A stretch of DNA of 64,000 nt from Eutreptiella sp. 'Long Island Sound 2002' (Eukaryota; Euglenozoa; Euglenophyceae; Eutreptiales; Eutreptiaceae). The notes beneath the pieces are model-generated. The model did no database searches, was not told the DNA's origin, and worked only from the letters and a program-made list of their open reading frames with translations. The translations under genes were made by a program, and so were the position numbers. Of the stretch, positions 10,829-64,000 are shown one piece after another (within the stretch, counting starts at the first letter, position 1; each line of letters opens with the position of its first letter). The stretch lies in NCBI GenBank assembly GCA_964036045.1, contig OZ038383.1, positions 113,123,241 through 113,187,240 on the forward strand. The letters run 5' to 3'.

Positions 10829-10831
10829 TAG

Positions 10832-18350: not shown

Positions 18351-18384
18351 CACGCCATCATTAGATTTGCAAATGCTGTAATGA

Positions 18385-20000: not shown

Positions 20001-21324
20001 CGGGCGCTGCATTGCTTTGTCGTCGGGCTCTGCAATGCTTTGCCGTCGGGCTCTGCATTGCTTTGCCGTCGGGCGCTGCATTGCTTTGCCGTCGGGCTTT
20101 GCATTGCTTTGCCGTCGGGCTCTGCATTGCTTTGCCGTCGGGCGCTGCATTGCTTTGTCGTCGGACGCTGCATTGCTTTGTCGTCGGGCTCTGCATTGCT
20201 TTGCCGTCGGGTGCTGCATTGCTTTGTCGTCGGGCGATCCATTGCTTTGTCGTCGGGCTCTGCATTGCTTTGCCGTCGGGCTCTGCATTGCTTTGCCGTG
20301 CAGCTCTGTATTGCTTTGCCGTCGGGCTTTGCATTGCTTTGCCGTCGGGCTCTGCATTGCTTTGCCGTCGGGCGCTGCATTGCTTTGTCGTCGGGCTTTG
20401 TATTGCTTTGCCGTCGGCCCCTGCATTGCTTTGCCGTCAGGCGCTGCATTGCTTTGCCGTCGGGCGCTGCATTGCTTTGTCGTCGGGCGCTGCATTGCTT
20501 TGTCGTCAGGCTCTGCATTGCTTTGCCATCGGGCGCTGCATTGCTTTGTCGTCGGGCACTGCATTGCTTTATCGTCGGGCTCTGCATTGCTTTGTCGTCG
20601 GGCGCTGCATTGCTGTGTCGTCGGGCGCTGCATTGCTTGGCCGTCGGGCTCTGCATTGCTTTGCCGTCGGTCGCTGCATTGCTTTGTCATCGGGCGCTGC
20701 ATTGCTTTGTCGTCGGGCTCTGCATTGCTTTGCCGTCGGGCGCTGCATTGCTTTGTCGTCGGGCGCTGCATTGCTTTGTCGTCAGGCGCTGCATTGCTTT
20801 GTCGTCGGGCGCTGCATTGCTTTGTCGTCGGGCTCTGCATTGCTTTGCCGTCAGGCGCTGCATTGCTTTGTCGTCGGGCGCTGCATTGCTTTGTCGTCGG
20901 GCTCCGCATTGCTTTGCCGTCGGGCGCTGCATTGCTTTGTCGTCGGGCGCTGCATTCCTTTGTCGTCGGGCTCTGCATTGCTTTGCTGTCGGGCGCTGCA
21001 TTGCTTTGTCGTCGGGCGCTGCATTGCTTTGTCGTCGGGCTCTGCATTGCTTTGCCGTCGGGCGCTGCATTGCTTTGTCGTCAGGCTCTGCATTGCTCTG
21101 CCGTCGGGCGCTGCATTGCTTTGTCATCGGGCGCTGCATTGCTTTGTCGTCGGGCTCTGCATTGCTTTGCCGTCAGGCTCTGCATTGGTTTGTCGTCAGG
21201 CTCTGCATTGCTTTGCCGTCGGGCGCTGCATTGCTTTGTCGTCGGGCTCTGCATTGCTTTGTCGTCGGGCGCTGCATTGCTTTGTTGTAAGGCTCTGCAG
21301 TGCTTTGCCGTCGGGCGCTGCATT
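20001..21324 (+). repeat. 23-bp satellite array, left part
   Basis: The monomer reads GCATTGCTTTG, then T or C, then CGTCGGGC, then GC or TC, then T. GCATT starts run from 20009 to 21320, exactly 57 x 23 bases apart, so this part has no net indel. Variation is almost entirely substitutions. The array is continuous with the one starting at 28731: the same strand orientation, variants and phase, interrupted only by the DNA transposon. A marker monomer with GTGCAG in place of GTCGGG occurs here at 20298 and nine times in the right part. Confidence 0.97.
21323..21324. other. Left copy of 2-bp target-site duplication (TT)
   Basis: The satellite stops at GCATT (21320-21324) and the transposon begins with CCCTAG at 21325. 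After the right terminus at 28730 the satellite resumes with TTGCTTTG. Deleting the element and one TT gives an unbroken monomer, GCATTGCTTTG. Confidence 0.85.
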
Positions 21325-21348
21325 CCCTAGTGACCCCTTTTGCACACC
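21325..21348 (+). repeat. Left terminal inverted repeat (24 bp)
   Basis: It starts CCCTAGTGACC and ends TTTTGCACACC, and is the exact complement of 28707-28730. Similarity stops after 24 bases. Confidence 0.97.
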
Positions 21349-21985
21349 ATGGTGCCATGTCCTATGTTCAACCGGTGTTCAACTGACTTCACCTGGGCCC
21401 TTGAACCACCCCTGAACAGCGGTTGAACACCCCCACCGCGCGTAGTGCAATTTTACCAAAAATTAAACTTTTGACGTATCACCATGCCATTCCAAACCAT
21501 CCATGACGATGTACCATGCTTTTAACAACATACTAATGCCCAATGCACTATTCCATGCCATACCCCTCACATTGCCACTCCCTTTCTATCATGTCCAAGA
21601 GTAGCGTCAACGCCGCCTTGGTGTTCAACCATGCGGTTGAACACCCCACTTGACACATTCCCCTAAGCTTTGACCTTCATTGTGGTCTTTTGGCTTCCAT
21701 TCTATGGTGGATGGTGTTCAGAGGTTTTTGCAGTGTGCACCTGCCTTATCCAAATCAATTATAACCACAAAACCATGGATTTTCTGCTACTTTCATATTG
21801 CCGCCCATACGCGTTCGGCCATGTTCAACTGCGTGTTCAACCGCGCGGTTGAACACGGTTGAACACGGTTGAACACGGTTGAACACACACTGGAGCGCGT
21901 TAGGAGAAATGCCGCACGTAATCGCAATCACACAACAATGGCACCACCAATTGGCGTCAAATTGGATGAACAATCCCAGTGCCTG
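21349..21985. other. Left subterminal region of the transposon, non-coding
   Basis: No coding region is supported. It holds clusters of the CGGTTGAACA / TGTTCAACCG motif at 21364-21431, 21628-21648 and 21826-21885; the last has four head-to-tail copies 11-12 bases apart. Such arrays next to a terminus are typical transposase-binding sites. Confidence 0.6.
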
Positions 21986-23481
21986 TCACCATGGGAACCC
22001 CAGGTCCAGGAGTTCAGTGCGCATCGGAGCGGGAAGGCGGTGCCACGCGATAGATGTATACGCCACGATGGCATACCTTTCACCCTCCCATCGCTCCGGC
22101 CCATGCGTACGCCACGCATTGAAAATCACCCCCTTTCGTGCATCCACAACAACCCCTTGCACAATTTGACGCCCACATTGCATCCATGCTTGACGCTGCG
22201 CCCCCCCCTCCCCCCCACCACCCATCCACGCCGTAGTAAAGAAACCACCACCACGGAAATCACCCACCGCCACCACCCCACTCAACGCGGAGTCATCCCT
22301 TGGATGTTTGTGTACATCCATGGGTGCACATCCGTTGCCCCACACGATGGAAATTGCGGTGTAACTGAGGGACGGTAAACAAACCGTGAGGAAATTATTT
22401 ACAAGGCGCACAACATGTGCATCATCATGTGTCCTCTTAGACATGCCCACGTGTGTAAACGTCGGAAACTTCCTTGTTGCTCCCCATAGGATCCGGCGGA
22501 ACTCTCCTCCATGTTTCTTCTTGTGGAGCCATCCCTTCAAGCCTTGTAAGGCTTCATGGACCTTGTCGGCCAGTCACTTTGAGTCAACGGCCCATAGCGC
22601 TTGCGTCTCCGGTCCGACCTCCTCCTTCCCATCATCGGCACACTCCTTCTCCCTTGTGCTCGCCATTGCCCTTTCGCTCCCACCTTCGTGCATGCCGTCT
22701 TGAGGTCCACCTTCCTCCTTTGCATCATCTCCAACATGAGGTCGTTCATTCTCCTTGGCATCGTGCTCCACCTTGGGGTTGTTGAGGGCATCGGACATGC
22801 CCTCCTTGTTGGCATCGTCCACGGACGTGCCCTCCTTGTTCGAATCCTCCACGGACATGCCCTCCTTGTTGGAATCGTCCACGTCATTTGAAGTGCTCTC
22901 CTTCATGGGATCCTCGGAGTCCTCCTTGGTGCCATTGTCCGACGCATTGGTGGTACTTCCCGCGATTGCTTCCGTGCTTGCGATTGCTTCCGTGCTTGCC
23001 CCATCTTGACCTCCATCTTTTGTATCTCCGCTCTCGGTTGCCGCGTCTTGGCCTCCATGTTTTGCATCTCCGCTCTCGGTTTCCTTGTCGTGGCCTCCAT
23101 GTCTTGCATCTCCGCTCTCGGTTTCCTTGGTCGCTTTCTCCATGTTCTCCTCCCACTTCGCCACATGGCCTTTGCCTCATCCTCGCTCGTGAACGCTGTG
23201 TGGCGGAGGCGCACAATGACTGGCCACGTGACGTTGGCCTCACTCTGCTCTCCGGGCCATTGGGGGGGGAGTTTCACCATCTCCTCCCCCTTCCGTGGCT
23301 TGGGGTCGTCCTTCGTTGGCTTTGCCACGGCGCCCACTGCGATGCGGTGGCGCTTGTCTGGACCCTCGGTCAGCACCCACCGTACTGCGGATCCCGCTGG
23401 CAACCCGAACTTCTCACGCGCCTCTTGGCGCTTCTCGTCGAGGCGGCGTTTTTCCTCCAATCGTTGCACTTTCACCATCTC
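21986..23481 (-). pseudogene. Exon 3: repeats then 2-oxoglutarate/Fe(II) dioxygenase-like domain, damaged
   Basis: After the acceptor at 23482 the frame gives a basic helix (RLEEKRRLDEKRQEAREKF) and LPAGSAVRWVL. At about 23163 the frame must change; an extra TG would explain it. Then come 14-residue repeats (KETESGDA-type, 42 bp, about 23016-23140) and 10-residue repeats (NKEGMS-type, 30 bp, about 22790-22885), a TGA at 22574, and, in the same frame, the C-terminal domain (about 22410-21986). That domain reads YTAISIVWG, MDVHKHP, VAVGDFRGGGF, VVVDARKGVIFNAWRTHGP, then WEGERYAIVAYT and LLDLGFPW. This matches the order HxD, GGxF, H and GxR of the double-stranded beta-helix oxygenases. The distal His (near 22104) and the 2OG-binding Arg (near 22077) are present; the first His appears replaced in PMD (near 22318). 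Confidence 0.45.
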
Positions 23482-23685
23482 CTATGCAAAAGCGTTGCAG
23501 AGAGTTCAACCGAGTTCAACCGCGTTCAACCGTGTTCAACCGACCGGTTGAAGTGTTCAACCGTGTTCAACCGTGTTTCACGACGTACCGCCACACACTA
23601 TAGCACCGGCATGCTTCGACGTTGTGAAGGCGCATTGCAACCAAATGTAGAGGCATATGCATACGCAGGAACATGGGGACATCAC
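23482..23685 (-). other. Intron 2 of the accessory gene
   Basis: It is bounded by GAG|GTGATG and TTTTGCATAG and holds seven or more CGGTTGAAC / GTTCAACCG motifs at 23499-23577, including a palindromic pair TTCAACCGACCGGTTGAA. It joins two phase-0 exon ends. Confidence 0.6.
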
Positions 23686-24777
23686 CTCTTCCGCTGGTGC
23701 GCTTGCTTGCACCGTGGTACTTGTGCTTGCACTTGTCTCCATTGCGCCACTTGCCTCCATCGCGCCACTTGCCTCTGTCGCGGCACTTGCCTCCGTCGCG
23801 CCACTTGCCTCCATCGCGCTACTTGCCTTCGTCGCGCCACTTGCCTTCGCTGTGCCACTTGCCTCCGTCACGTTCGGTGTTGACCGTTGTCCTTCCTTTG
23901 CTCCCACATTTGCGTTGTTGGTCTCTTTCGGCCGCAGAGATGCCTTCTCCTTCTTGTCCTTGTCCTTTTTGTCCTTCTTTGGTTTTGCTTCGATCTTCTT
24001 CTTCTTGTTTGCCTTGGGAGCCTCCTCTTTCTTGGGAGGTGTCCACCCCTCATCATTGTCCGACAATTGGCTTGCACTTGACCCTTTTGAGTCGGACGAC
24101 GAGTCCGCTGACGTTGCCACCCGTTGCCGCTTTTTGGAATGCACTCCCCGCCCGTCCTTCTTCTTCTTCTTGTCGGTTTTGTCTTGCACCCTTTGTTTGA
24201 GCGCAGTTTGCGCTTGGAGGAGCAAAACCTTTGGGCTTGCACTTCCTCCCTTTGCTTGTGGAATTGCCTTTGGTGGAGGCTTCAAGAGTCCACGAATGGG
24301 GACGTGGACTTTTGGCTCTTCTCGGAAGGGTGATGTTGAGCTCTCTGCCTCGTCGACCACGGGATTTTCACTCTCCACGTCTCCATGATCCGGCGCAAAC
24401 CATGCATTAGAATTCTCCCACCACGTGCCATCGTCGGTGTTCATGTCATCCCTCAATTCCTCCTTCACGCCAAACATTGGTTGGGGGAATTGCTTCGCCT
24501 TGCCCGACTGACTCCGATGCTTTGGGGTGGACTCCATGGGTGTGCCAATCGCATGTGTGTCAATCGCATGTGGGGACCCGCCATGTGCAAGCTCTTGGAG
24601 TGCGCGATGAAGTCCTCGGGTCCATTTCTTCACGAGGGCGTCGCGATCGGAAACCCGTGCACCTGGCCCATGCCACCATTCATCGATGGGTAATGGCGGC
24701 CATGCTCCATGGAGCATGACCGCCGGTCCGCGTTTGTCAATGACGAACATGTGGGGTGGGACGTCTTGGGCCGACAA
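23686..24777 (-). CDS. Exon 2 of the transposon accessory gene
   Basis: The exon begins right after the acceptor CTCTCTTAG at 24778 and is 364 codons long, phase 0 at both ends. The first 60 residues (MFVIDKRGPAVMLHG, IDEWWHGPG) look globular; the rest is disordered: acidic Ser-rich patches, a nuclear-localisation-like Lys/Arg cluster (DKKKKKDGRG, SKKRQR), a long Lys/Asp/Glu run near 23990-23940, and a hexapeptide repeat (A-T/M-E-A-S-G) encoded by an 18-bp DNA repeat at about 23740-23875. A basic, disordered linker would fit a nuclear DNA-binding protein. Confidence 0.5.
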
Positions 24778-25079
24778 CTAAGAGAGATGAGCGGTTGAAT
24801 GGGGTTGAGGTGCGAAACCGACCGGTTGAACACCGGTTGAAAACATGTGGCCACCACCTCATATGCACGGCACCCTCAGCGCACTAACACAGGGTATTGA
24901 ATTATTGAACCATGTATGCATCCCAGACATGCAGGTCTCAATGTCCTAGCCACCAATTGCCCAAAACATCCACTCCGAACGTGTCACACACGGACTGTAT
25001 CCATACTCTCTCCGTTCGCTTTGCTTCAACTGCCCGGTTGAACACGGTTGAACACCGGTTGAACACTTGTTGCACACAC
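24778..25079 (-). other. Intron 1 of the accessory gene
   Basis: It is bounded by CAG|GTGTGT and a pyrimidine tract ending TCTCTCTTAG. Motif clusters lie just inside both ends (25029-25070 and 24794-24842), mirroring the pattern at the element termini. Confidence 0.6.
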
Positions 25080-25991
25080 CTGCTCCACGCCTCGCATCAT
25101 TGACGAAGTGCTTGTGGTCGCATTGGGTAGTGTGGTTGGTGGTGCAACCGCTGCAGGTGCCTCCTCCATGCTGGACTTCTTGCTGCGCCCGCCACTTGAT
25201 ATGGTTCCCCCGACCTCGACCATGAATGGCGGTGACGCGTTGTAGTTGGTGGCGTCAGAGGCGTGATACCAATTGTGCGGCACGGACTCCACGTTTTTGA
25301 AAAAGAATTGCGGCCCATGGCCCTTGCCATGGCCGCCACTTCGGCCAGCACACCCAGGGCCGGTCCATTGGGGTGCCACTGCAGTCCCCAGCCCGTAGGA
25401 TTCCCATACCCTAAAGAGGGCATGGAGGGCGGTCTCCGACAACGTCATGGCAATTCCGGGGCGCGTGCTCAAACCAATCCTCAAAAGTTTCCACTCGGCC
25501 CAATTCTGGGCTGTGAGTGCTTTCGTTGTCCACGGGTGGCTCTGGTGGCCATGGAGGTCATACTGGGCGTTTTTTTTCATCCACACCCCGACACTCCTCC
25601 GGTACATGAACCGGGGTGTGATGTCCCGGAGCCATCTCCATTGAGGGGAGTCATCCGCCAACGACGATGAGTCGTGGCACACCCCAAATTGGGTCAACTC
25701 CTCCTTCGCTGGGAACAAAGCATCCAACGCTGGGACCACTTGTGGCAAAGGCAAGGATGCTCCTCCTGTTGTACCCCCGCCTATCGGCCCCGTTGATCCC
25801 GTAGGCCCACTTTGGGTCGGCGCAATTACATTTGGGTGTGGCAATTGCGGCGCGGCCAATTGCGGTGGTCCCAATTGCGGCACTTGGGCACCTTGTGGTG
25901 CTTGCGGTCCTTGTACCCCTTGTGCGGCTTGTAAGAACTGCATGAGTGCGAGCCCAATCGCTTGTTGCGCCGACGCTTGTTGTCCTTCCAT
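25080..25991 (-). CDS. Exon 1 of the transposon accessory gene
   Basis: The ATG at 25991 opens a 304-codon exon. Residues 1-100 are Gln/Ala/Pro/Gly-rich with repeated Pro-Gln turns and no fold I can name. Residues about 105-235 look globular: FPAKEELTQFGVCHD, then WRWLRDITPRFMYRRSVGVW, then AEWKLLRIGLSTRPG and LFRVWESYGLG. The end is Ser/Ala/Thr-rich. The exon ends at 25080 with the donor CAG|GTGTGT; the first intron bases include three head-to-tail TTCAACC motifs. I do not recognise the globular part. Confidence 0.55.
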
Positions 25992-26165
25992 GACGCCCCC
26001 CTAAAAACAAAGAAAAATAGACACTCGCGCGGTTGAACATGCTTGCACACCTCAACCGACCGGTTGAACAACTTGAAGTGCCGCTGAACACGGTTGCACA
26101 CGGAACACGGAGCATAAAGTATGAAGCACCAACGACAAACCACATAGCCCACACCTAGAGTTTGA
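25992..26165 (-). other. Spacer or intron between the two transposon genes
   Basis: This gap holds another motif cluster (26028-26102) followed by a T-rich tract and TTTTTAG, then the ATG of the accessory gene. A possible donor (CG|GTGGGA) lies before the stop of the upstream gene, so the two genes may be spliced together in some transcripts. Confidence 0.4.
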
Positions 26166-28180
26166 TCATTCTCCACCCGCACTCGTTCGTTCCCACCGTG
26201 GTAGCTCTTTTGCCAGAAAGATCCTTTCGTGCGCTTGTTTTAGCATGCGCTTATCACGAGCTACACGCCCACCGGGGCCACCGCCACGCCCACTTGAGCA
26301 TAAGAAGTGGTCTTTTAATATATAGTTTAGTGATTCTACTATATCTCCACTAAACATTCCCGCCCCCCATGGGTAAATATTTTTCAGAACCTCCGTAGCC
26401 TCTCTTCTAAGCCACAAAAGGTAAGGTGACCGCTTATGCGGACAAATTCATTTCTGAAATCGACGTGCCACACGTTTACACTTTGAAAGGGCCGCGGCCT
26501 CGTAGCGCCATGATTGCATGGCCGTCAAAAGGTTTGCCATTTCTTGTACAACAGATATATACTTTGGAGGCAACTTCATGGTCTTACCTATTATTGTCCA
26601 GTTAGCGAGGAGACGCCATGTCTCCTCACGGTCCGGGCTTGCCTTACCTTTGAGACTGTTATTAGTCTTAGATTCATTCAACACGGTTTGCACGCGTGCA
26701 CGGACAAGAGGCGGCAAACGTTTGCAAAACGCGCGAATGAAGTGTGTAAGGTAGTCGCCAAGTCGGATCACCAAGTGCAAAATGCACATCACAATGAACC
26801 GTGTGCGGTCATCCACGCGGAGCATTGGTTTTGAAGTGCACCCTTTGGCCGTAGTGCAATCCAAACCTTTATCGTACAAAGCGCGGAATTTTCCATCAAG
26901 GTGCGTTGTGCGCCGCACCTTAGTGTTCATCCATCGTTCACGCCTACTACACCATGTGGAAAAAGAGTAGATGCTTCCAATGGCATAGTAAGGCGACAAT
27001 CCTAAAAGTAGACGCAACCATGGAGAGTCTCCACCCAACATGATTCGTGCACGATAATAAACATTATTCATTTGGATGTATCCACTATCAATGATAGTTT
27101 GGATGTGTTGCAACGTGGCACAAAAAAAGACACGCATTGCTTCGTCGTCATGTTCAGATGTCAATGCGACATCCAATGTCCAATTATATTGAAGAGTGCG
27201 GGCCTTTTCCATGTGATTGGCAAAGCCAATCGCAATTTGCACCCATGGGCGTGAGCCACATGGGAACCCGTCGCCTCTAATTATGATGACGAATAATTGC
27301 TCGCCATCGATCATTGGAAAGTCCATGGACTCCATGAGCTCCTTTTGTGTTGCGACATAATTAAAGAAATGCGGTAAGTCCCATCGTACACCAACTTTGT
27401 CATTGTGAATAGTGGTTTCCAATTTTTGCGCCTTACCCAATCGTTGCCATTCACGGTGCATACGCTTGAAAGATGGAAATGGGTGCACCCAATGAACATC
27501 CAACTTTTCTTGGGCAGCTTTTGTTCGCCGGTTGGCCCAAGATATTAGATTCTTGTACCTAAATTTGAGGCATGTTAATTCGAACAAAGTGACGCGCACA
27601 ACGTGAACGTTGGTGCACAACGTGAGCGTTGGTTGAAATCGTTCAACTTGTTCAACCGGGCAGTTGAACATGACTTTAACAAATGTTCAATTTGTTGTTT
27701 TCATGAAAAAACACTTGATGGTAGCATGTAAATGGGGCCACAATTGCATGTGGAAGAAGACATATACATGATAGTTCGATGAAACCTAGGTAGGCACTCT
27801 ATGTTGCACAAACATGAGTCGCATTTGTTTCATATGTGTTCAACCGCACACTTGAACGCATCTCGCATACGGTTGAACACTCCTTGCATACATGCAACGC
27901 ACCATGGTATGCATGTAGGACATCTAGAGCACCTATTTTTCGGCATTTCCAAGTCAAGGATCAACCGGACGGCATCCTTGGGTGTAAACACCCTTTCCAT
28001 GACCTTCCGGTCATTGCGTCGACTACGCCGCCCACTACCCATTCTAGTCTTGAGGCGTTCCCATAGTGTACGACCACCCTTGGATGCGGTGAACAAGTTG
28101 ACCAAATCACTCATCAATTCAGCCGATTGTAATCCAGTGTAGTGATCTGCAATACATTGCTTCAAGTTTGACGTTGGCAT
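26166..28180 (-). pseudogene. Candidate D-D-E transposase, two exons, one internal stop
   Basis: The exon from 28180 (ATG; the open frame extends to 28228) ends at 27903, and the second exon runs from 27558. Donor CCATG|GTGCGT leaves two bases and the acceptor side supplies one, so the junction codon and frame agree. The second exon is open to a TGA at 26448-26450 and continues in the same frame to 26166. Features of an RNase H-fold transposase: IIRGDGF (Asp near 27271), GGDSPWLRLLLGL (Asp near 27028), a conserved-looking LH-x-x-x-R-x-G (near 26770), and after the stop GMFSGDIVESLNYILK with a candidate Glu near 26335. The triad is my inference from motif shape; I do not recognise a named superfamily. 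Confidence 0.55.
27559..27902 (-). other. Intron of the candidate transposase gene
   Basis: The intron starts GTGCGT and ends CAAATTTAG. Motif clusters lie near both ends, at 27838-27880 and 27638-27671, as in the other introns of the element. Confidence 0.5.
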
Positions 28181-28228
28181 TTTTGATTGTAAAATGAGAG
28201 GGATCCTTGCATACAAGTAAGAAACCAC

Positions 28229-28706
28229 AATGGGGAATCTCTTGGTGCTCTAATTTGTTCTTATTGTTACGTTATTTTTGGTGACACTACCATATTGCAC
28301 AAAGGTGAAATTAAATATTCTTCAATTCAATGCGTCATGTATATAGTAAAAAGCGAGCAGGTGGCAACTACTACACACCATGTGCATTCCCTTTACCGCC
28401 ACGTGTTGGCCACCACGTGCCGGCTCCAGTTTTCATGTATGTGGTCACCACACCGCCACCTGCCCATTGGTAGTAGGTTCCAGGATTTAACTGGGTTTTA
28501 GGGAACAGCTCAAAACCAAAATTGTGGGACAGGCTACATTTACCAATTAACCACTGTTGAACGCGTGATCGCGTGAGCACGCACCACCGATTGGCGCGAT
28601 AGGCCAGTTGAACTGTTCAACCGCGTTCGACCGAGTTCAACTGGGGGGTTGAACAGCAACATGCTGTTCAACTGGGTTCAACCGCTGTTCAACCGCTACG
28701 CTCAAA
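28229..28706. other. Right subterminal region of the transposon
   Basis: No supported gene. A dense motif cluster occupies 28611-28697, with at least eight GTTCAAC/GTTGAAC copies in both orientations up to ten bases from the terminal repeat. The part around 28371-28580 is open on the minus strand for 70 codons but shows nothing I recognise; it could hold a 5' exon or the promoter of the transposase gene. Confidence 0.5.
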
Positions 28707-28730
28707 GGTGTGCAAAAGGGGTCACTAGGG
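28707..28730 (-). repeat. Right terminal inverted repeat (24 bp)
   Basis: Exact complement of 21325-21348. It reads GGTGTGCAAAA on the plus strand and ends in CACTAGGG at the satellite junction. Confidence 0.97.
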
Positions 28731-28732
28731 TT
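28731..28732. other. Right copy of 2-bp target-site duplication (TT)
   Basis: TT directly follows the right terminus and begins the resumed monomer TTGCTTTG; it pairs with 21323-21324. Confidence 0.85.
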
Positions 28733-29699
28733 GCTTTGTCATCGGGTGCTGCATTGCTTTGTCGTCGGGCTCTGCATTGCTTTGCCGTCGGGCGCTGCAT
28801 TGCTTTGTCGTCGGGCGCTGCATTGCTTTGTCGTCTGGCTCTGCATTGCTTTGCCGTCGGGCGCTGCATTGCTTTGTCGTCGGGCGCTGCATTGCTTTGT
28901 CGTCGGGCGCTGCATTGCTTTGTCTTCGGGCTCTGCATTGCTTTGCCGTCGGGCTCTGCATTGCTTTGCCGTGCAGCTCTGCATTGCTTTGCCGTCGGGC
29001 TTTGCATTGCCTTGCCGTCGGGCTCTGCATTGCTTTGCCGTCGGGCGCTGCATTGCTTTGTTGTCGGGCGCTGCATTGCTTTGTCGTCGGGCGCTGCATT
29101 GCTTTGCCGTCGGGCGCTGCATTGCTTTGTCGTCGGGCGCTGCATTGCTTTGTCGTTGGGCTCTGCATTGCTTTGTCGTCGGGCGCTGCATTGCTTTGTC
29201 GTCGGGCGCTGCATTGCTTTGTCGTCGGGCTCTGCATTGCTTTGCCGTCGGGCGCCGCATTGCTTTGTCGTCGGGCGCTGCATTGCTTTGTCGTCCGGCT
29301 CTGCATTGCTTTGCCGTCAGGCGCTGCATTGCTTTGTCGTCGGGCGCTGCATTGCTTTGCCGTCGGGCTCTGCAGTGCTTTGCTGTCGGGCGGTGCATTG
29401 CTTTGTCGTCCGGCTCTGCATTGCTTTACCGTCGGGCTTTGCATTGCTTTGCCGTCGGGCGCTGCATTGCTTTGCCGTCGGGCGCTGCATTGCTTTGTCG
29501 TCGAGCGCTGCATTGCTTTGTCGTCGGGCTCTGCATTGCTTTGCTGTCGAGTGCTGCATTGCTTTGTCGTCGGGCGCTGCATTGCTTTGTCGTTGGGCTC
29601 TGCATTGCTTTGCCGTCGGGCGCTGCATTGCTTTGTCGTCAGGCGCTGCATTGCTTTGTCCTTGGGCTCTGCATTGCTTTGCCGTCGGGCGCTGCATTG

Positions 29700-31360
29700 C
29701 TTTGTCGTCGGGCGCTGCATTGCTTTGTCGTCGGGCGCTGCATTGCTTTGTCGTCGGGCGCTGCATTGCTTTGTCGTCGGGCGCTGCATTGCTTTGTCGT
29801 CGGGCGCTGCATTGCTTTGCCGTCGGGCGCTGCATTGCTTTGTCGTCGGGCTCTGCATTGCTTTGCCGTCGGGCGCTGCATTGCTTTGTCGTCAGGCGCT
29901 GCATTGCCTTGTCGTCGGGCTCTGCATTGCTTTGCCGTCGGGCTCTGCATTGCTTTGCCGTGCAGCTCTGCATTGCTTTGCCGTCGGGCTTTGCATTGCT
30001 TTGCCGTCGGGCTCTGCATTGCTTTGTGGTCAGGCTTTGCATTGCTTTGCTGTCTAGCTCTGCATTGCATTGCCGTCGGGCGCTGCATTGCTTTGTCGTC
30101 AGGCTTTCCATTGCTTTGCTGTCGGGCTCTGCATTGCTTTGCCGTCAGGCGCATCATTGCTTTGTCGTCGGGCTCCGCATTGCTTTGTCGTCGGGCTCTG
30201 CATTGCTTTGCCGTCGAGCGCTGCATTGCTTTGTCGTCGGGCGCTGCACTGCTTTGTCGTCGTGCTCTGCATTGCTTTGCCGTCGGGCGCTGCATTGCTT
30301 TGTCGTCGGGCGCTGCATTGCTTTGTCGTCGGGCTCTGCATTGCTTTGCCGTCGGGCGCTGCGTTGCTTTGTCGTCAGGCGCTGCATTGCTTTGTCGTCG
30401 GGCTCTGCATTGCTTTGCCGTCGGGCGCTGCATTGCTTTGTCGTCGGGCGCTGCATTGCTTTGTCGTCGGGCTCTGCATTGCTTTGCCGTCGGGCGCTGC
30501 ATTGCTTTGTCGTCGGGCGCTGCATTGCTTTGTCGTCGGGCGCTGCATTGCTTTGTCGTCGGGCGCTGCATTGCTTTGTCGTCGGGCGCTGCATTGCTTT
30601 GTCGTCGGGCGCTGCATTGCTTTGTCGTCGGGCGCTGCATTGCTTTGCCGTCGGGCGCTGCATTGCTTTGTCGTCGGGCTCTGCATTGCTTTGCCGTCGG
30701 GCGCTGCATTGCTTTGTCGTCAGGCGCTGCATTGCCTTGTCGTCGGGCTCTGCATTGCTTTGCCGTCGGGCTCTGCATTGCTTTGCCGTGCAGCTCTGCA
30801 TTGCTTTGCCGTCGGGCTTTGCATTGCTTTGCCGTCGGGCTCTGCATTGCTTTGTGGTCAGGCTTTGCATTGCTTTGCTGTCTAGCTCTGCATTGCATTG
30901 CCGTCGGGCGCTGCATTGCTTTGTCGTCAGGCTTTCCATTGCTTTGCTGTCGGGCTCTGCATTGCTTTGCCGTCAGGCGCATCATTGCTTTGTCGTCGGG
31001 CTCCGCATTGCTTTGTCGTCGGGCTCTGCATTGCTTTGCCGTCGAGCGCTGCATTGCTTTGTCGTCGGGCGCTGCACTGCTTTGTCGTCGTGCTCTGCAT
31101 TGCTTTGCCGTCGGGCGCTGCATTGCTTTGTCGTCGGGCGCTGCATTGCTTTGTCGTCGGGCTCTGCATTGCTTTGCCGTCGGGCGCTGCGTTGCTTTGT
31201 CGTCAGGCGCTGCATTGCTTTGTCGTCGGGCTCTGCATTGCTTTGCCGTCGGGCGCTGCATTGCTTTGTCGTCGGGCGCTGCATTGCTTTGTCGTCGGGC
31301 TCTGCATTGCTTTGCCGTCGGGCGCTGCATTGCTTTGTCGTCGGGCGCTGCATTGCTTCG
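29700..31360. repeat. 828-bp (36-monomer) tandem duplication within the satellite
   Basis: Marker variants repeat with an offset of 828 = 36 x 23: GTGCAG monomers at 29960 and 30788, the GCCTTGTCG monomer near 29906 and 30734, and an unusual CAGGCGCATC monomer near 30150 and 30978. Similarity breaks near 30530/31355. Confidence 0.8.
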
Positions 31361-34300
31361 TCGTCGGGCTCTGCATTGCTTTGCTGTCGGGCGCTGCATT
31401 GCTTTGTCGCCGGGCGCTGCATTGCTTTGTCGTCGGGCGCTGCATTGCCTTGCCGTCGGGCTGTGCATTGCTTTGCCGTCGGGCTCTGCATTGCTTTGCC
31501 GTGCAGCTCTGCATTGCTTTGCTGTTGGGCTTTGCATTGCTTTGCCGTCGGGCTCTGCATTGCTTTGCCGTCGGGCGCTGCATTGGTTTGTCGTCGGGCT
31601 TTGCATTGCTTTGCTGTCTAGCTCTGCATTGCATTGCCGTCGGGCGCTGCATTGCTTTGTCGTCAGGCTTTGCATTGCTCTGCCGTCGGGCTCTGCATTG
31701 CTTTGCGGTCGGGCGCTGCATTGCTTTGTCGTCGGCCTCTGCATTGCTTTGTCGTCGGGCTCTGCATTGCTTTGCCGTCGGGCGCTGCATTGCTTTGTCG
31801 TCGGGCGCTGCACTGCTTTGGCGTCGGGCTCTGCATTGCTTTGCCGTCGGGCGCTGCATTGCTTTGTCGTCGGGCGCTGCATTGCTTTGTCGTCGGGCTC
31901 TGCATTGCTTTGCCGTCGGGCGCTGCATTGCTTTGTTGTCAGGCGCTGCATTGCTTTGTCGTCGGGCTCTGCATTGCCTTGCCGTCGGGCGCTGCATTGC
32001 TTTGTCGTCGGGCGCTGCATTGCTTTGTCGTCGGGCGCCGCATTGCTTTGCCGTCGGGCGCTGCATTGCTTTGTCGTCGGGCGCTGCTTTGCTTTGTCGT
32101 CGGGCTCTGCATCGCTTTGCTGTCGGGCGCTGCATTGCTTTGTCGCCGGGCGCTGCATTGCTCTGTCGTCGATCTCTGCATTGCTTTGTCGTCGGGCGCT
32201 GCATTGCTTTGTCGTCGGGCGCTGCATTGCTTTGCCGTGGGGCGCTGCATTGCTTTGCCGTCGGGCGCTGCATTGCTTTGTCGTCGGGCTTTGCATTGCT
32301 TTGCCGTCGGGCTCTGCATTGCTTTGCTGTCGGGCGCTGCATTGCTTTGTCGTCGAGCGCTGCATTGCTTTGTCGCCCGGCTCTGCATTGCTTTGTCGCC
32401 CGGCTCTGCATTGCTTTGTCGTCGGGCGCTGCATTGCTTTGCCGTCGGGCGCTGCATTGCTTTGCCGTCGGGCGCTGCATTGCTTTGCCGTCGGGCGCTG
32501 CATTGCTTTGTCGTCGAGTGCTGCATTGCTTTGTCGTCGAGCGCTGCATTGCTTTGTCGCCGGGCTCTGCATTGCTTTGCCGTCGGTCACTGCATTGCTT
32601 TGTCGTCGGGCGCTGCATTGCTTTGTCGTCTGGCTCTGCATTGCTTTGCCGTCGGGCGCTGCATTGCTTTGTCGTCGGGTGCTGCATTGCTTTGTCGTCG
32701 GGCTCTGCATTGCTTTGCCGTCAGGCGCTGCATTGCTTTGTCGTCGGGCTCTGCATTGCTTTGTCGTCGGGCGCTGCATTGCTTTGTCGTCAGGCGCTGC
32801 ATTGCTTTGTCGTCGGGCTCTGCATTGCTTTGCCATCGGGCGCTGCATTGCTTTGTCGTCGGGCGCTGCATTGCTTTGTCGTCGGGCTCTGCATTGCTTT
32901 GCCGTCGGGCGCTGCATTGCTTTGTCGTCGGGCGCTGCATTTCTTTGTCGTCGAGCGCTGCATTGCTTTGTCGTCGGGCGCTGCATTGCTTTGTCGTTGA
33001 GCTCTGCATTGCTTTGTCGTCGGGCGCTGCATTGCTTTGTCGTCGGGCGCTGCATTGCTTTGTCGTCGCGCTCTGCATTGCTTTGCCGTCGGGCGCTGCA
33101 TTGCTTTGTCGTCGGGCTCTGCATTGCTTTGCCGTCGGGCGCTGCAATGCTTTGTCGTCGGGCGCCGCAATGCTTTGTCGTCGGGCTCTGCATTGCTTTG
33201 CCTACGGGCGCTGCATTGCTTTGTCGTCGGGCGCTGCATTGCTTTGTCGTCGGGCGCTGCATTGCTATGTCGTCAGGCGCTGCATTGCTTTGTCGTCGGG
33301 CTCTGCATTGCTTTGCCATCGGGCGCTGCATTGCTTTGTCGTCGGGCGCTGCATTGCTTTGTCGTCGGGCTCTGCATTGCTTTGCCGTCGGGCACTGCAT
33401 TGCTTTGTCGTCGGGCGCTGCATTGCTTTGTTGTCGGGCTCCGCATTGCTTTGCCGTCAGGCGCTGCATTGCTTTGTCGTCGGGCTCTGCATTGCTTTGT
33501 CGTCGGGCGCTGCATTGCTTTGTCGTCGGGCTCTGCATTGCTTTGCCGTCGGGCGCTGCATTGCTTTGTCGTCGAGCGCTGCATTGCTTTGTCGTCGGGC
33601 TCTGCATTGCTTTGCCGTCGGGCGCTGCGTTGCTTTGTCGTCGGGCGCTGCATTGCTTTGTCGTTGAGCTCTGCATTGCTTTGCCGTCGGGCGCTGCATT
33701 GCTTTGTCGTCAGGCGCTGCATTGTTTTGTCGTCCGGCTCTGCATTGCTTTGCCGTCGGGCGCTGCATTGCTTTGTCGTCGGGCGCTGCATTGCTTTGTC
33801 GTCGGGCGCTGCATTGCTTTGTCGTCGGGCGCTGCATTGCTTTGTCGTCGGGCGCTGCATTGCTTTGTCGTCGGGCTCTGCATTGCTTTGCCGTCGGGCG
33901 CTGCAATGCTTTGTCGTCGGGCGCTGCATTGCTTTGTCGTCGGGGGCTGCATTGCTTTGTCGTCGGGCTCTGCATTGCTTTGTCGTCGGGCCCTACATTG
34001 CTTTGCCGTCGGGCGCTGCATTGCTTTGTCGTCGGGCGCTGCATTGCTTTGTCGTCGGGCTCTGCATTGCTTTGCCGTGGGGCGCTGCATTGCTTTGTCG
34101 TCGGGCGCTGCATTGCTTTGTCGTCGGGGGCTGCATTGCTTTGTCGTCGGGCTCTGCATTGCTTTGCTGTCGGGCGCTGCATTGCTTTGTCGTCGGGCGC
34201 TGCATTGCTTTGTCGTCGGGCTCTGCATTGCTTTGTTGTCGGGCGCTGCATTGCTTTGTCGTCGGGCGCTGCATTGTTTTGTCGTCGGGCTCTGCATTGC

Positions 34301-36009
34301 TTTGCCGTCGGGCTCTGCATTGCTTTGCCGTCGGGCGCTGCATTGCTTTGTCGTCGGGCGCTGCATTGCTTTGTCGTCGGGCGCTGCATTGCTTTGTCGT
34401 CGGGCGCTGCATTGCTTTGTCGTCGGGCGCTGCATTGCTTTGTCGTCGGGCTCTGCATTGCTTTGCCGTCGGGCGCTGCATTGCTTTGTCGTCGGGCGCT
34501 GCATTGCTTTGTCGTCGGGCGCTGCATTGCTTTGTCGTCGGGCTCTGCATTGCTTTGTCGTCGGGCCCTGCATTGCTTTGCCGTCGGGCGCTGCATTCCT
34601 TTGTCGTTCGGCCCTGCATTGCTTTGTCACCGGGCGCTGCATTGCTTTGTCGTCGGGCTCTGCATTGCTTTGCCGTCAGGCGCTGCATTGCTTTGTCGTC
34701 GGGCGCTGCATTGCTTTGTCGTCAGGCTCTGCATTGCTTTGCCATCGGGCGCTGCATTGCTTTGTCGTCGGGCGCTGCATTGCTTTGTCGTCGGGCTCTG
34801 CATTGCTTTGCCGTCGGGCGCTGCATTGCTTTGTCGTCGGGCGCTGCATTGCTTTGTCGTCGGGCTCTGCATTGCTTTGCCGTCAGGCGCTGCATTGCTT
34901 TGTCGTCGGGCGCTGCATTGCTTTGCCGTCGGGCGCTGCATTGCTTTGTCGTCGGGCTCTGCATTGCTTTGCCGTCGGGCGCTGCATTGCTTTGTCGTCG
35001 GGCGCTGCATTGCTTTGTCGTCGGGCGCTGCATTGCTTTGCCGTCGGGCGCTGCGTTGCTTTGTCGTCGGGCGCTGCATTGCTTTGTCGTTGGGCTCTGC
35101 ATTGCTTTGCCGTCGGGCGCTGCATTGCTTTGTCGTCGGGCGCTGCATTGCTTTGTCGTCGGGCGCTGCATTGCTTTGTCGTCGGGCGCTGCATTGCTTT
35201 GTCGTCGGGCGCTGCATTGCTTTGTCGTCGGGCTCTGCATTGCTTTGCCGTCGGGCGCTGCATTGCTTTGTCGTCGGGCGCTGCATTGCTTTGTCGTCGG
35301 GGGCTGCATTGCTTTGTCGTCGGGCTCTGCATTGCTTTGTTGTCGGGCCCTGCATTGCTTTGCCGTCGGGCGCTGCATTGCTTTGTCGTCGGGTGCTGCA
35401 TTGCTTTGTCGTCGGGCGCTGCATTCCTTTGTCGTCGGGCTCTGCATTGCTTTGCTGTCGGGCGCTGCATTGCTTTGTCGTCGGGCGCTGCATTGCTTTG
35501 TTGTCAGGCGCTGTATTGCTTTGTCGTCGGGCGCTGCATTGTTTTGTCGTCGGGCTCTGCATTGCTTTGCCGTCGAGCGCTGCATTGCTTTGTCGTCGGG
35601 CGCTGCATTGTCGTCAGGTGCTGCATTGCTTTGTCGTCGGGCGCTGCATTGCTTTGTCGTCGGGCGCTGCATTGCTTTGTCGTCGGGCGCTGCATTGCTT
35701 TGTCGTCCGGCACTGCATTGCTTTGTCGTCGGGCGCTGCATTGCTTTGTCGTCGGGCGCTGCATTGCTTTGTCGTCGGGGGCTGCATTGCTTTGTCGTCG
35801 GGCTCTGCATTGCTTTGTCGTCGGGCCCTGCATTGCTTTGCCGTCGGGCGCTGCATTCCTTTGTCGTTCGGCGCTGCATTCCTTTGTCGTCGGGCGCTGC
35901 ATTGCTTTGTCGTCGGGCTCTGCATTGCCTTGCCGTTGGGCGCTGCATTGCTTTGTCGTCGGGCGCTGCATTGCTTTGCCGTCGGGCGCTGCATTGCTTT
36001 GCCGTCAGG

Positions 36010-39000
36010 CGCTGCATTGCTTTGTCGTCGGGCTTTGCATTGCTTTGCCGTCGGGCTCTGCATTGCTTTGCCGTCGCGCGCTGCATTGCTTTGTCGCCGG
36101 GCTCTGCATTGCTTTGCCGTCGGGCACTGCATTGCTTTGTCGACGGGCGCTGCATTGCTTTGCCGTCGGGCGCTGCATTGCTTTGCCGTCGGGCGCTGCT
36201 TTGCTTTGTGGTCGGGCTTTGCATTGCTTTGCCGTCGGGATCTGCATTGCTTTGCCGTCGCGGGCTGCATTGCTTTGTCGTCGAGCGCTGCATTGCTTTG
36301 TCGTCGGGCTCTGCATTGCTTTGCCGTCGGTCGCTGCATTGCTTTGTCGTCGGGCGCTGCATTGCTTTGTCGTCGGGCTCTGCATTGCTTTGCCGTCGGG
36401 CGCTGCATTGCTTTGTCGTCGGGCGCTGCATTGCTTTGTCATCGGGCTCTGCATTGCTTTGCCTACGGGCGCTGCATTGCTTTGTCGTCAGGCGCTGCAT
36501 TGCTTTGTCGTCGGGCTCTGCATTGCTTTGTCGTCAGGCGCTGCATTGCTTTGTCGTCGGGCCCTGCATTGCTTTGTCGTCGGGCTCTGCATTGCTTTGC
36601 CATCGGGCGCTGCATTGCTTTGTCGTCGGGCGCTGCATTGCTTTGTCGTCGGGCTCTGCATTGCTTTGCCGTCGGGCGCTGCATTGCTTTGTCGTCGGGC
36701 GCTGCATTGCTTTGTCGTCGAGCGCTGCATTGCTTTGTCGTCGGGCGCTGCATTGCTTTGTCGTCGAGCTCTGCATTGCTTTGCCGTCGGGCGCTGCATT
36801 GCTTTGGCGTCAGGCGCTGCATTGCTTTGTCGTGGGGCTCTGCATTGCTTTGCCGTCGGGCGCTGCATTGCTTTGTCGTCGGGCGCTGCATTGCTTTGTC
36901 GTCGGGCTCTGCATTGCTTTGCCGTCAGGCGTTGCATTGCTTTGTCGTCGGGCGCTGCATTGCTTTGTCGTCGGGCGCTGCATTGCTTTGTCGTCGGGCT
37001 CTGCATTGCTTTGCCGTCGGGCGCTGCATTGCTTTGTCGTCGGGCTTTGCATTGCTTTGCCGTCGGGCTCTGCATTGCTTTGCCGTTGGGCGCTGCATTG
37101 CTTTGTCGTCGGGCGCTGCATTGCTTTGTCGCCGGGCTCTGCATTGCTTTGTCGTCGGGCGCTGCATTTTTTCGTCGTCGGGCTCTGCATTGCTTTGCCG
37201 TTGGGCGCTGCATTGCTTTGTCGTCGGGCGCTGCATTGCTTTGTCGTCGGGCGCTGCATTGCTTTGTCGTCGGGCGCTGCATTGCTTTGTTGTCGGGCGC
37301 TGCATTGCTTTGTCGTCGGGCTCTGCATTGCTTTGCCGTCGGGCGCTGCATTGCTTTGTCGTCGGGCGCTGCATTGCTTTGTCGTCAGGCGCTGCATTGC
37401 TTTGTCGTCGGGCGCTGCATTGCTTTGTCGTCGGGCTCTGCATTGCTTTGCCGTCGGGCGCTGCATTGCTTTGTCGTCGAGCGCTGCATTGCTTTGTCGT
37501 CGGGCTCTGCATTGCTTTGCCGTCGGGCGCTGCATTGCTTTGTCGTCGGGCTTTGCATTGCTTTGCCGTCGGGCTCTGCATTGCTTTGCCGTCGGGCGCT
37601 GCATTGCTTTGTCGTCGGGCGCTGCATTGCTTTGTCGCCGGGCTCTGCATTGCTTTGTCGTCGGGCGCTGCATTGTTTCGTCGTCGGGCTCTGCATTGCT
37701 TTGCCGTCGGGCGCTGCATTGCTTTGTCGTCGGGCGCTGCATTGCTTTGTCGTCGGGCGCTGCATTGCTTTGTCGTCGGGCGCTGCATTGCTTTGTTGTC
37801 GGGCGCTGCATTGCTTTGTCGTCGGGCTCTGCATTGCTTTGCCGTCGGGCGCTGCATTGCTTTGTCGTCGGGCGCTGCATTGCTTTGTCGTCGGGCGCTG
37901 CATTGCTTTGTCGTCGGGCGCTGCATTGCTTTGTCGTCGGGCTCTGCATTGCTTTGCCGTCAGGCGCTGCATTGCTTTGTCGGCGGGCGCTGCATTGTTT
38001 TGTCGTCGGGGGCTGCATTGCTTTGTCGTCGGGCTCTGCATTGCTTTGTCGTCGGGCCCTGCATTGCTTTGCCGTCGGGCGCTGCATTGCTTTGTCGTCG
38101 GGCTCTGCATTGCTTTGTCGTCGGGCGCTGCATTCCTTTGTCGTCGGGCTCTGCATTGCTTTGCTGTCGGGCGCTGCATTGCTTTGTCGTCGGGCGCTGC
38201 ATTGCTTTGTCGTCGGGCTCTGCATTGCTTTGTTGTCGGGCGCTGCATTGCTTTGTCGTCGGGCGCTGCATTGCTTTGTCGTCGGACTCTGCATTGCTTT
38301 GCCGTCAGGCGCTGCCTTGCTTTGTCGTCGGGCGCTGCATTGCTTTGTCGTCGGGCTTTGCATTGCTTTGCCGTCGGGCTCTGCATTGCTTTGCCGTCGG
38401 GCGCTGCATTGCTTTGTCGTTGGGCGCTGCATTGCTTTGTCGTCGGGCTCTGCATTGCTTTGTTGTCGGGCGCTGCATTGCTTTGTCGTCGGGCGCTGCA
38501 TTGCTTTGTCGTCGGACTCTGCATTGCTTTGCCGTCGGGCGCTGCATTGCTTTGTCGTCGGGCGCTGCATTGCTTTGTCGTCGGGCTCTGCATTGCTTCG
38601 CCGTCGGGCGCTGCATTGCTTTGTCGTCGGGCGCTGCATTGCTTTGTCGTCAGGCTCTGCATTGCTTTGCCGTCGGGCGCTGCATTGCTTTGTCGTCGGG
38701 CGCTGCATTGCTTTGTCGTCAGGCTCTGCATTGCTTTGTCGTCGGGCGCTGCATTGCTTTGTCGTCGGGCTCTGCATTGCTTTGTCGTCGGGCTCTGCAT
38801 TGCTTTGCCATCGGGCGCTGCATTGCATTGTCGTCGGGCGCTGCATTGCTTTGTCGTCGGGCTCTGCATTGCTTTGCCGTCGGGCCCTGCATTGCTTTGT
38901 CGTCGGGCTTTGCATTGCTTTGCCGTCGGGCTCTGCATTGCTTTGCCGTCGCGCGCTGCATTGCTTTGTCGCCGGGCTCTGCATTGCTTTGCCGTCGGGC

Positions 39001-41760
39001 ACTGCATTGCTTTGTCGACGGGCGCTGCATTGCTTTGCCGTCGGGCGCTGCATTGCTTTGCCGTCGGGCGCTGCTTTGCTTTGTGGTCGGGCTTTGCATT
39101 GCTTTGCCGTCGGGATCTGCATTGCTTTGCCGTCGCGGGCTGCATTGCTTTGTCGTCGAGCGCTGCATTGCTTTGTCGTCGGGCTCTGCATTGCTTTGCC
39201 GTCGGTCGCTGCATTGCTTTGTCGTCGGGCGCTGCATTGCTTTGTCGTCGGGCTCTGCATTGCTTTGCCGTCGGGCGCTGCATTGCTTTGTCGTCGGGCG
39301 CTGCATTGCTTTGTCATCGGGCTCTGCATTGCTTTGCCTACGGGCGCTGCATTGCATTGTCGTCAGGCGCTGCATTGCTTTGTCGTCGGGCTCTGCATTG
39401 CTTTGTCGTCAGGCGCTGCATTGCTTTGTCGTCGGGCCCTGCATTGCTTTGTCGTCGGGCTCTGCATTGCTTTGCCATCGGGCGCTGCATTGCTTTGTCG
39501 TCGGGCGCTGCATTGCTTTGTCGTCGGGCTCTGCATTGCTTTGCCGTCGGGCGCTGCATTGCTTTGTCGTCGGGCGCTGCATTGCTTTGTCGTCGAGCGC
39601 TGCATTGCTTTGTCGTCGGGCGCTGCATTGCTTTGTCGTCGAGCTCTGCATTGCTTTGCCGTCGGGCGCTGCATTGCTTTGTCGTCAGGCGCTGCATTGC
39701 TTTGTCGTGGGGCTCTGCATTGCTTTGCCGTCGGGCGCTGCATTGCTTTGTCGTCGGGCGCTGCATTGCTTTGTCGTCGGGCTCTGCATTGCTTTGCCGT
39801 CAGGCGTTGCATTGCTTTGTCGTCGGGCGCTGCATTGCTTTGTCGTCGGGCGCTGCATTGCTTTGTCGTCGGGCTCTGCATTGCTTTGCCGTCGGGCGCT
39901 GCATTGCTTTGTCGTCGGGCTTTGCATTGCTTTGCAGTCGGGCTCTGCATTGCTTTGCCGTCGGGCGCTGCATTGCTTTGTCGTCGGGCGCTGCATTGCT
40001 TTGTCGCCGGGCTCTGCATTGCTTTGTCGTCGGGCGCTGCATTTTTTCGTCGTCGGGCTCTGCATTGCTTTGCCGTTGGGCGCTGCATTGCTTTGTCGTC
40101 GGGCGCTGCATTGCTTTGTCGTCGGGCGCTGCATTGCTTTGTCGTCAGGCGCTGCATTGCTTTGTCGTCGGGCGCTGCATTGCTTTGTCGTCGGGCTCTG
40201 CATTGCTTTGCCGTCAGGCGCTGCATTGCTTTGTCGTCGGGCGCTGCATTGCTTTGTCGTCAGGCGCTGCATTGCTTTGTCGTCGGGCGCTGCATTGCTT
40301 TGTCGTCGGGCTCTGCATTGCTTTGCCGTCGGGCGCTGCATTGCTTTGTCGTCGAGCGCTGCATTGCTTTGTCGTCGGGCTCTGCATTGCTTTGCCGTCG
40401 GGCGCTGCATTGCTTTGTCGTCGGGCTTTGCATTGCTTTGCCGTCGGGCTCTGCATTGCTTTGCCGTCGGGCGCTGCATTGCTTTGTCGTCGGGCGCTGC
40501 ATTGCTTTGTCGCCGGGCTCTGCATTGCTTTGTCGTCGGGCGCTGCATTGTTTCGTCGTCGGGCTCTGCATTGCTTTGCCGTCGGGCGCTGCATTGCTTT
40601 GTCGTCGGGCGCTGCATTGCTTTGTCGTCGGGCACTGCATTGCTTTGTCGTCGGGCGCTGCATTGCTTTGTTGTCGGGCGCTGCATTGCTTTGTCGTCGG
40701 GCTCTGCATTGCTTTGCCGTCGGGCGCTGCATTGCTTTGTCGTCGGGCGCTGCATTGCTTTGTCGTCGGGCGCTGCATTGCTTTGTCGTCGGGCGCTGCA
40801 TTGCTTTGTCGTCGGGCTCTGCATTGCTTTGCCGTCAGGCGCTGCATTGCTTTGTCGGCGGGCGCTGCATTGTTTTGTCGTCGGGGGCTGCATTGCTTTG
40901 TCGTCGGGCTCTGCATTGCTTTGTCGTCGGGCCCTGCATTGCTTTGCCGTCGGGCGCTGCATTGCTTTGTCGTCGGGCTCTGCATTGCTTTGTCGTCGGG
41001 CGCTGCATTCCTTTGTCGTCGGGCTCTGCATTGCTTTGCTGTCGGGCGCTGCATTGCTTTGTCGTCGGGCGCTGCATTGCTTTGTCGTCGGGCTCTGCAT
41101 TGCTTTGTTGTCGGGCGCTGCATTGCTTTGTCGTCGGGCGCTGCATTGCTTTGTCGTCGGACTCTGCATTGCTTTGCCGTCAGGCGCTGCCTTGCTTTGT
41201 CGTCGGGCGCTGCATTGCTTTGTCGTCGGGCTTTGCATTGCTTTGCCGTCGGGCTCTGCATTGCTTTGCCGTCGGGCGCTGCATTGCTTTGTCGTTGGGC
41301 GCTGCATTGCTTTGTCGTCGGGCTCTGCATTGCTTTGTTGTCGGGCGCTGCATTGCTTTGTCGTCGGGCGCTGCATTGCTTTGTCGTCGGACTCTGCATT
41401 GCTTTGCCGTCGGGCGCTGCATTGCTTTGTCGTCGGGCGCTGCATTGCTTTGTCGTCGGGCTCTGCATTGCTTCGCCGTCGGGCGCTGCATTGCTTTGTC
41501 GTCGGGCGCTGCATTGCTTTGTCGTCAGGCTCTGCATTGCTTTGCCGTCGGGCGCTGCATTGCTTTGTCGTCGGGCGCTGCATTGCTTTGTCGTCAGGCT
41601 CTGCATTGCTTTGTCGTCGGGCGCTGCATTGCTTTGTCGTCGGGCTCTGCATTGCTTTGTCGTCGGGCTCTGCATTGCTTTGCCATCGGGCGCTGCATTG
41701 CATTGTCGTCGGGCGCTGCATTGCTTTGTCGTCGGGCTCTGCATTGCTTTGCCGTCGGGC
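36010..41760. repeat. 2,875-bp (125-monomer) tandem duplication within the satellite
   Basis: Distinct monomers recur at an offset of 2,875 = 125 x 23. These include the GTCGCGCGC monomer (36073/38948), TTGTGGTCGGG (36209/39084), TTTGTCGACGGG (36138/39013) and a CATTGTTTCGTCG monomer (37672/40547). Copies are nearly identical; similarity ends near 38909/41784. Confidence 0.8.
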
Positions 41761-63970: not shown

Positions 63971-64000
63971 TTGCTTTGCCGTCGGGCTCTGCATTGCTTT

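Follow-up and report, generated by a model that had tools for sequence, protein, structure and literature searches.

What kind of element interrupts a 23-bp satellite in the genome of the euglenophyte Eutreptiella sp. 'Long Island Sound 2002', and how might its parts work together? The question is raised by a stretch of 64,000 nucleotides (NCBI GenBank assembly GCA_964036045.1, contig OZ038383.1, positions 113,123,241 to 113,187,240 of the forward strand; hereafter the window, numbered from its first letter), in which an insert of 7,406 bp carries a transposase gene, a second gene here called gene B, an additional open reading frame (ORF3) and many copies of the short motif GTTSAAC (GTTGAAC or GTTCAAC). 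This insert is a copy of a real, recently multiplied family of cut-and-paste DNA transposons. The whole is best, and in our estimation rather probably, explained by a young CACTA-like family in which gene B would act as a motif binder of the TnpA/VANC type and from which derivatives would have moved in trans.

The boundaries of the insert can be placed to the base. Its 24-bp inverted termini (CCCTAGTGACCCCTTTTGCACACC) are perfect, and the window holds just these two matches at up to three mismatches, with none in 100 shuffles. TT flanks the element on each side, and the match between the flanks stops short of 3 bp. The phase of the surrounding satellite is 14 (modulo 23) on the left and 16 in the first kilobase on the right, i.e., shifted by exactly 2, which equals 7,408 modulo 23. 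Since the element length is itself, by coincidence, a multiple of the satellite unit (7,406 = 322 x 23), this register shows the 2-bp duplication and not the full length of the insert.

The same ends recur throughout the window's own assembly (2.28 Gb, 2,205 contigs). Allowing for up to three mismatches, the 24-bp end occurs there 253 times in forward and 256 times in reverse orientation, as compared to 0 and 0 for a reversed control pattern. From the 100 of these 509 places that were listed (contigs C1 and C2), every pair of adjacent ends that face each other across no more than 7.5 kb was fetched, which gave 36 pairs and used 72 of the places. Ends standing singly or spaced more widely were not included; with the window copy, the sample comprises 37 copies. 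The target duplication is exactly 2 bp in 35 of them, 3 bp in one (L037) and absent in one (L043). The duplicated dinucleotide varies freely, with TA in only 4 of the 37 copies, and C is the outer neighbour of the duplication in 43 of 70 cases (two per site, 35 sites), a target preference that can be described loosely as C-NN-G. Twenty-one copies, including that of the window, are longer than 6 kb; the window copy shares 98.6-99.2% identity with the 20 others, and the distance of the 21 from the column majority is 0.32-1.01%. Such low divergence points to a recent burst; the family is young and possibly still active. The original prediction, made from the letters of the window, had described a complete DNA transposon with perfect 24-bp termini, a TT duplication, a restored satellite register and a base-exact footprint. 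All of this is confirmed by the phase shift, the genome-wide ends and the 35 exact duplications, with the register speaking for the duplication only. The search that it proposed, for other copies bounded by the same ends with their flanks tabulated, revealed neither inconsistent flanks nor similarity running past the ends in the 37 copies, apart from the single 3-bp and the single missing duplication.

On contig C2, a distance of about 90 kb separates two copies (L059 and L060) that are nearly identical but differ in their duplications (TT and CC); a recent local hop is the likely reason. Facing family ends 18-25 kb apart (C1:110213942-110234542, C1:200671026-200689551 and C2:107815675-107840044) are perhaps nested insertions or composite elements. 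Beyond this assembly, a 20-mer of the end searched in 257 Gb of genome contigs gave one place, in Aquimarina, at about chance level; no relative was found in the viral contigs searched, and the listings of the literature search contained no description of the element.

Sixteen of the fetched copies are shorter (820-3,732 bp), and in every one of them an internal deletion has brought the two element ends together, as is typical of cut-and-paste elements whose gap repair was interrupted. All 16 are devoid of the region of the presumed catalytic glutamate (E501, near 26336), each retains no fewer than 12 motif copies and a left part of 288 bp or more, and every short copy bears its own 2- or 3-bp duplication. 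Three of them (L055, L061 and L063) are additionally shortened by about 200 bp in the right terminal region, as are 7 of the 21 long copies. Internally deleted copies with ends and motif clusters would be mobilised in trans, and we infer that the short copies moved in this way; deletion after insertion would give the same picture.

Both long genes are encoded on the minus strand. The transposase gene (28180-26166) contains one intron and encodes a DDE-type protein of 556 amino acids, in which D189, D270 and E501, 81 and 231 residues apart, are assigned by motif as putative catalytic residues. Gene B (25991-22574) contains two introns and encodes about 970 amino acids, including three tandem peptide arrays and a charged exon 2 (364 residues, among them 57 Lys+Arg and 50 Asp+Glu). 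Neither gene is intact in the window copy: the transposase contains an internal stop, and gene B exon 3 is frameshifted relative to most copies; C-to-T decay, considered as the origin of the transposase stop, is not borne out by sister copies. Among the 21 long copies, all 556 transposase codons are open in 11 (with a splice acceptor missing from one of these), gene B is open as far as a common UGA in 8, both long genes are open in 6, and all six splice dinucleotides are intact in 15. A genome search with transposase exon 2 yielded 93 matches, 72 of them without an inside stop (92 of 8,792 candidates scored). The earlier description of a large element with two spliced genes is thus upheld by frames and splice sites kept in sister copies; it had overlooked the broken state of the window copy as well as the motif system.

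This motif system is a feature of the non-coding segments. In the window copy, 36 GTTSAAC words fall into 2,235 non-coding bases (0.72 expected) as opposed to none in 5,171 coding bases. The density amounts to 11-29 per kb in all six non-coding segments and to 0.05 per kb in the first 20 kb of the window; more precisely, introns and intergenic segment range from 11.5 to 29.4 per kb, compared to 14.5 and 16.6 at the two ends. The words are present in both orientations, their arrays often step by 10 bp, i.e., one helical turn, and each long copy carries 32-38 of them. Genome-wide, the doubled motif with at most one mismatch was found 632 + 616 times (control 0 + 1). One hundred of these 1,248 places were listed. 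None of them is more than 5.2 kb away from a listed family end, 78 are enclosed by a pair of ends separated by no more than 7.5 kb, and in these 100 places the arrays are thus private to the family.

Two precedents bear on such a distribution, namely the VANDALs of Arabidopsis, which are Mutator-like elements, and CACTA elements. According to the passages used from the respective papers, VANC21 binds a 9-base word arrayed in the introns, intergenic and terminal non-coding regions of VANDAL21, resulting in methylation loss (PMC5735166), and VANC proteins contain tandem peptide repeats (PMC10398659); in CACTA elements, TNPA binds subterminal repeats, which are cis-determinants of excision (PMC2613891), and Spm TnpA has been linked to demethylation. 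With VANDAL21/VANC21, as far as these excerpts describe it, the present element shares a short private word that forms tandem arrays in the non-coding parts (introns, intergenic segment and termini) and is mostly missing from exons, as well as an accessory protein with tandem peptide repeats, here gene B. In contrast, motif sequence and superfamily differ, and the word occurs here in both orientations. With En/Spm and Tgmt* of plants, in turn, it has in common a transposase accompanied by a second, rapidly evolving protein, numerous short subterminal repeats and derivatives with internal deletions, judged by the excerpted part of PMC2613891. According to the same excerpt, however, those elements combine CACTA ends with a 3-bp duplication, instead of CCCTA ends with 2 bp, and express alternatively spliced products of one precursor instead of what appear to be separate genes; moreover, the motifs of the present element are not confined to its ends but extend to all introns and the intergenic segment.

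Together with the peptide arrays of gene B and the motif distribution, the VANC21 and TNPA precedents lead to the proposed role of gene B. The 556-residue transposase would recognise the 24-bp ends and place the element into loosely C-NN-G targets, of which 2 bp become duplicated. Gene B, doing a job of the TnpA/VANC type, would most likely bind the GTTSAAC (CGGTTGAACA) words at the ends, in the introns and in the intergenic segment, and this binding would help the ends to pair and prevent silencing of the element. Alternatively, GTTSAAC may serve transposition only, as TnpA-like subterminal sites, with the intron copies being a by-product of tandem slippage and no anti-silencing taking place. 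CACTA subterminal repeats bound by TNPA as excision cis-determinants offer a model for this (excerpts of PMC2613891), both ends are motif-dense, all 16 derivatives have kept at least 12 motifs, and CpG decay is not absent from the family. Yet, the motif density of the introns and the intergenic segment is similar to that of the ends, which would be unneeded for transposition alone and corresponds to the VANDAL21/VANC21 pattern. We give the transposition-only explanation somewhat less than an even chance.

The reading of ORF3, which follows gene B, is divided in a similar manner. All 21 long copies have the UGA that precedes it; the idea that this UGA is a mutation of the window copy was dropped because it is fixed in the other copies. 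The ORF3 frame is open in 19 of the 21, and 147 of 150 matches in a genome search are without an inside stop (150 of 3,832 candidates scored). Its translation may depend on read-through, on alternative splicing or on a start of its own. ORF3 could, however, also represent, together with the in-frame UGA, the untranslated 3' remnant of a captured gene: with the UGA fixed, there is no long copy with a fused frame, ORF3 would, strictly read, be 3' untranslated sequence, and its synonymous excess is not significant (P 0.15). On the other hand, 195 open codons in one given frame have a P of 0.0024 under a Markov model, and stops are rarer in ORF3 (3 in 150) than in the transposase exon (23 in 93), with P ~0.003 after allowing for length and mutability, in a comparison of best-scoring copies only that is possibly biased. 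A captured, untranslated remnant is thus a serious contender that falls a little short of being the likelier option.

The C-terminal part of ORF3 (W-E-G-x-R...V-A-Y-T...L-G-F-P, GDFRGGGFF) may resemble algal/dinoflagellate TET/JBP-like dioxygenases, a likeness that no tool supported. In a tentative alignment to the family, the iron triad HxD/E...H is not present: the corresponding position reads HKH in 18 of 21 copies, LKH in one and HRH in one, and one copy is frame-shifted. Comparison of ORF3 with Pfam and PDB sequences gave no match, and its single-sequence fold model was unusable (predicted local distance difference test score, pLDDT, of 39). Fungal TET+ DNA transposons, in the excerpted description (PMC12730594), are a possible analogy only. 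As the accessory frame here, ORF3 may resemble the TET/JBP fold, but it has no profile, PDB or fold support and carries HKH instead of HxD in those 18 copies. On contig C10, ORF3 is located at 25543287, 25545917 and 25548547, an exact 2,630-bp step that suggests tandem amplification of part of the element.

Regarding the superfamily, the distance of 231 residues between D270 and E501 would correspond to the size of a CMC/Transib insertion domain. A further point of comparison is TRC, the animal and fungal branch of the CACTA superfamily, for whose Tribolium element the excerpted report gives an end beginning CCCTAGTAGCACC and a 2-bp duplication, while the aspartates of TRC/CACTA lie 80 residues apart (PMC1636069). 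The present end (CCCTAGTGACC) carries the CCC core and starts with the same CCCTAGT, the target duplication is 2 bp in both, the aspartate spacing is 81 here, and a relaxed LH-x4-LG stretch resembles TRC motif A. A second gene, a third frame and internal motif clusters, all present here, are not described for TRC in that excerpt. By its architecture, the element thus works like a TRC-type CACTA element, and its transposase probably represents a divergent CACTA/EnSpm-like (CMCT) branch without the CCHH zinc site. This placement is tentative, and the element is not filed as a proven CACTA member. The original prediction had seen CACTA-like ends and a 2-bp duplication combined with a transposase that does not fit. 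Its first part stands; as to the second, the aspartate spacing and the LHxxxxLG stretch do fit TRC, while the zinc motifs and a Pfam match are indeed absent.

Several results weigh against a CACTA-like family with gene B as motif binder. On the side of the transposase, the strict Transposase_21 motif I and motif A known from the TRC excerpt are absent in all six proteins checked, and no CXXC (domain III) is found at the expected place downstream of the second aspartate. Transposase_21 (PF02992) gave no match at E<=10 under HMMER filters. Exon-by-exon scans of Pfam, PHROGs and NCBIfam recognised none of the element's proteins, the sole rows being Spidroin_N below the Pfam cut-off and one PHROG at E 4, and of two PDB sequence searches, one gave 0 rows and the other 9, mostly DegP and regarded as noise (best E 0.62). 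According to the excerpted source (PMC12730594), members of the CMCT clade share the zinc motifs C(2)C and H(3-4)H and mostly have CA..TG termini; here, H(3-4)H is absent in six of six proteins, C(2)C between D270 and E501 in five of six, with a private C..C at 368 in the sixth, and the termini read CCCTA..TAGGG. Divergent relatives of the transposase in its own genome numbered 0 by the one pattern used, and the single-sequence AlphaFold model of the protein (pLDDT 36) is useless. Counts of synonymous, missense and nonsense changes among the copies show no significant departure from expectation and no significant constraint, as expected for copies that decay after insertion. On the side of gene B and its proposed role, CpG transitions among the copies are about threefold those at other C; with such decay present, lasting anti-silencing or freedom from methylation receives no support.

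These points also feed the proposal that the element belongs to a superfamily outside CACTA/CMC with a 2-bp duplication (ISL2EU/PHIS relatives) or forms a lineage of its own, with CCCTA ends and aspartate spacing being coincidental. The missing profile match, the absent CMCT zinc motifs and the absent strict TRC motifs I and A agree with it, but the 231-residue distance, which would match a CMC/Transib insertion domain in size, the aspartate spacing of 81 versus 80, the CCCTAGT start with an equal 2-bp duplication and targets that are rarely TA all stand against it. Harbinger-related elements, on the other hand, may have 0-, 2- or 3-bp duplications, as stated in the excerpted source (PMC12730594). 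Altogether, such a placement appears unlikely. Among named groups, KDZ (Kyakuja-Dileera-Zisupton) was rejected for its 7-8-bp duplication, and PHISTA and ESTA for their TA duplication. Very doubtful, in our view, is the most far-reaching combination, i.e., a zinc-site-less CACTA branch with a complete self-addressed escape system, in which gene B would bind the 36 private words in all non-coding segments and ORF3, a divergent TET/JBP-like module included in the product by UGA read-through or splicing, would be brought there to alter or shield modified bases, having evolved independently of VANC and fungal TET+ elements. That the insert is a chance inverted repeat or an assembly artefact, for which only the satellite setting speaks, is rejected as next to impossible in view of the genome-wide ends (control 0) and of flanks and duplications differing among 37 copies.

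What is tentatively new is a zinc-site-less CACTA-like branch with a private motif system in all non-coding segments. The family offers open gene copies, dependants and exact insertion sites in a lineage missed by the profile libraries tried. The way in which its motifs keep to non-coding DNA resembles the Arabidopsis VANDAL pattern, of which it would seem to be another and independent instance; if true, convergence of unrelated transposons on self-addressed anti-silencing becomes testable. Similarly, the transposase would test whether the zinc site said to be common to the RAG1/CACTA clade can be lost. The coordinates of all features are compiled in Table 1.

Table 1 Features of the transposon copy and its satellite flanks (window coordinates)
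Feature	Position	Strand	Remarks
Whole transposon copy	21325..28730		7,406 bp; inverted ends, TT duplication, satellite phase, genome-wide sister copies
Left terminal inverted repeat	21325..21348	+	24 bp
Right terminal inverted repeat	28707..28730	-	24 bp
Left target-site duplication	21323..21324		TT
Right target-site duplication	28731..28732		TT
Transposase exon 1	27903..28180	-	ATG at 28180; gene model, frame and splice sites kept in sister copies
Transposase exon 2	26166..27558	-	presumed catalytic D189, D270, E501; internal TGA 26448-26450 in window copy
Gene B exon 1	25080..25991	-	
Gene B exon 2	23686..24777	-	charged; 18-bp tandem array 23730-23869
Gene B exon 3	22574..23481	-	ends at UGA 22574-22576; 42-bp array 22996-23123, 30-bp array 22792-22883
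ORF3	21986..22573	-	195 codons, continuing the gene B frame immediately past the fixed UGA
GTTSAAC cluster, left terminal region	21366..21884		11 copies
GTTSAAC cluster, gene B intron 2	23504..23571		6 copies
GTTSAAC cluster, gene B intron 1	24825..25064		4 copies
GTTSAAC, between the two genes	26032..26069		2 copies
GTTSAAC cluster, transposase intron	27641..27878		5 copies
GTTSAAC cluster, right terminal region	28556..28693		8 copies; upstream of transposase gene
23-bp satellite array, left flank	20001..21324		
23-bp satellite array, right flank	28731..64000		69-bp higher period

The satellite on the right of the element extends over at least 35 kb, with about 1,534 copies of the 23-bp unit, and its phase changes several times along the array. 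The left part of the window (1-15709) is occupied by a Gypsy-type long terminal repeat (LTR) retrotransposon with reverse transcriptase, RNase H, integrase and chromodomain, whose polyprotein also gave a weak Dam-methylase-like match below the cut-off. The first 1,500 bases of the window match 14213-15709 at 98.2%, and the window therefore probably starts inside the left LTR of this retrotransposon. Between the retrotransposon and the left satellite, a 184-bp tandem repeat (16986-18379) comprises 7 copies with 62-100% identity to the reference copy.

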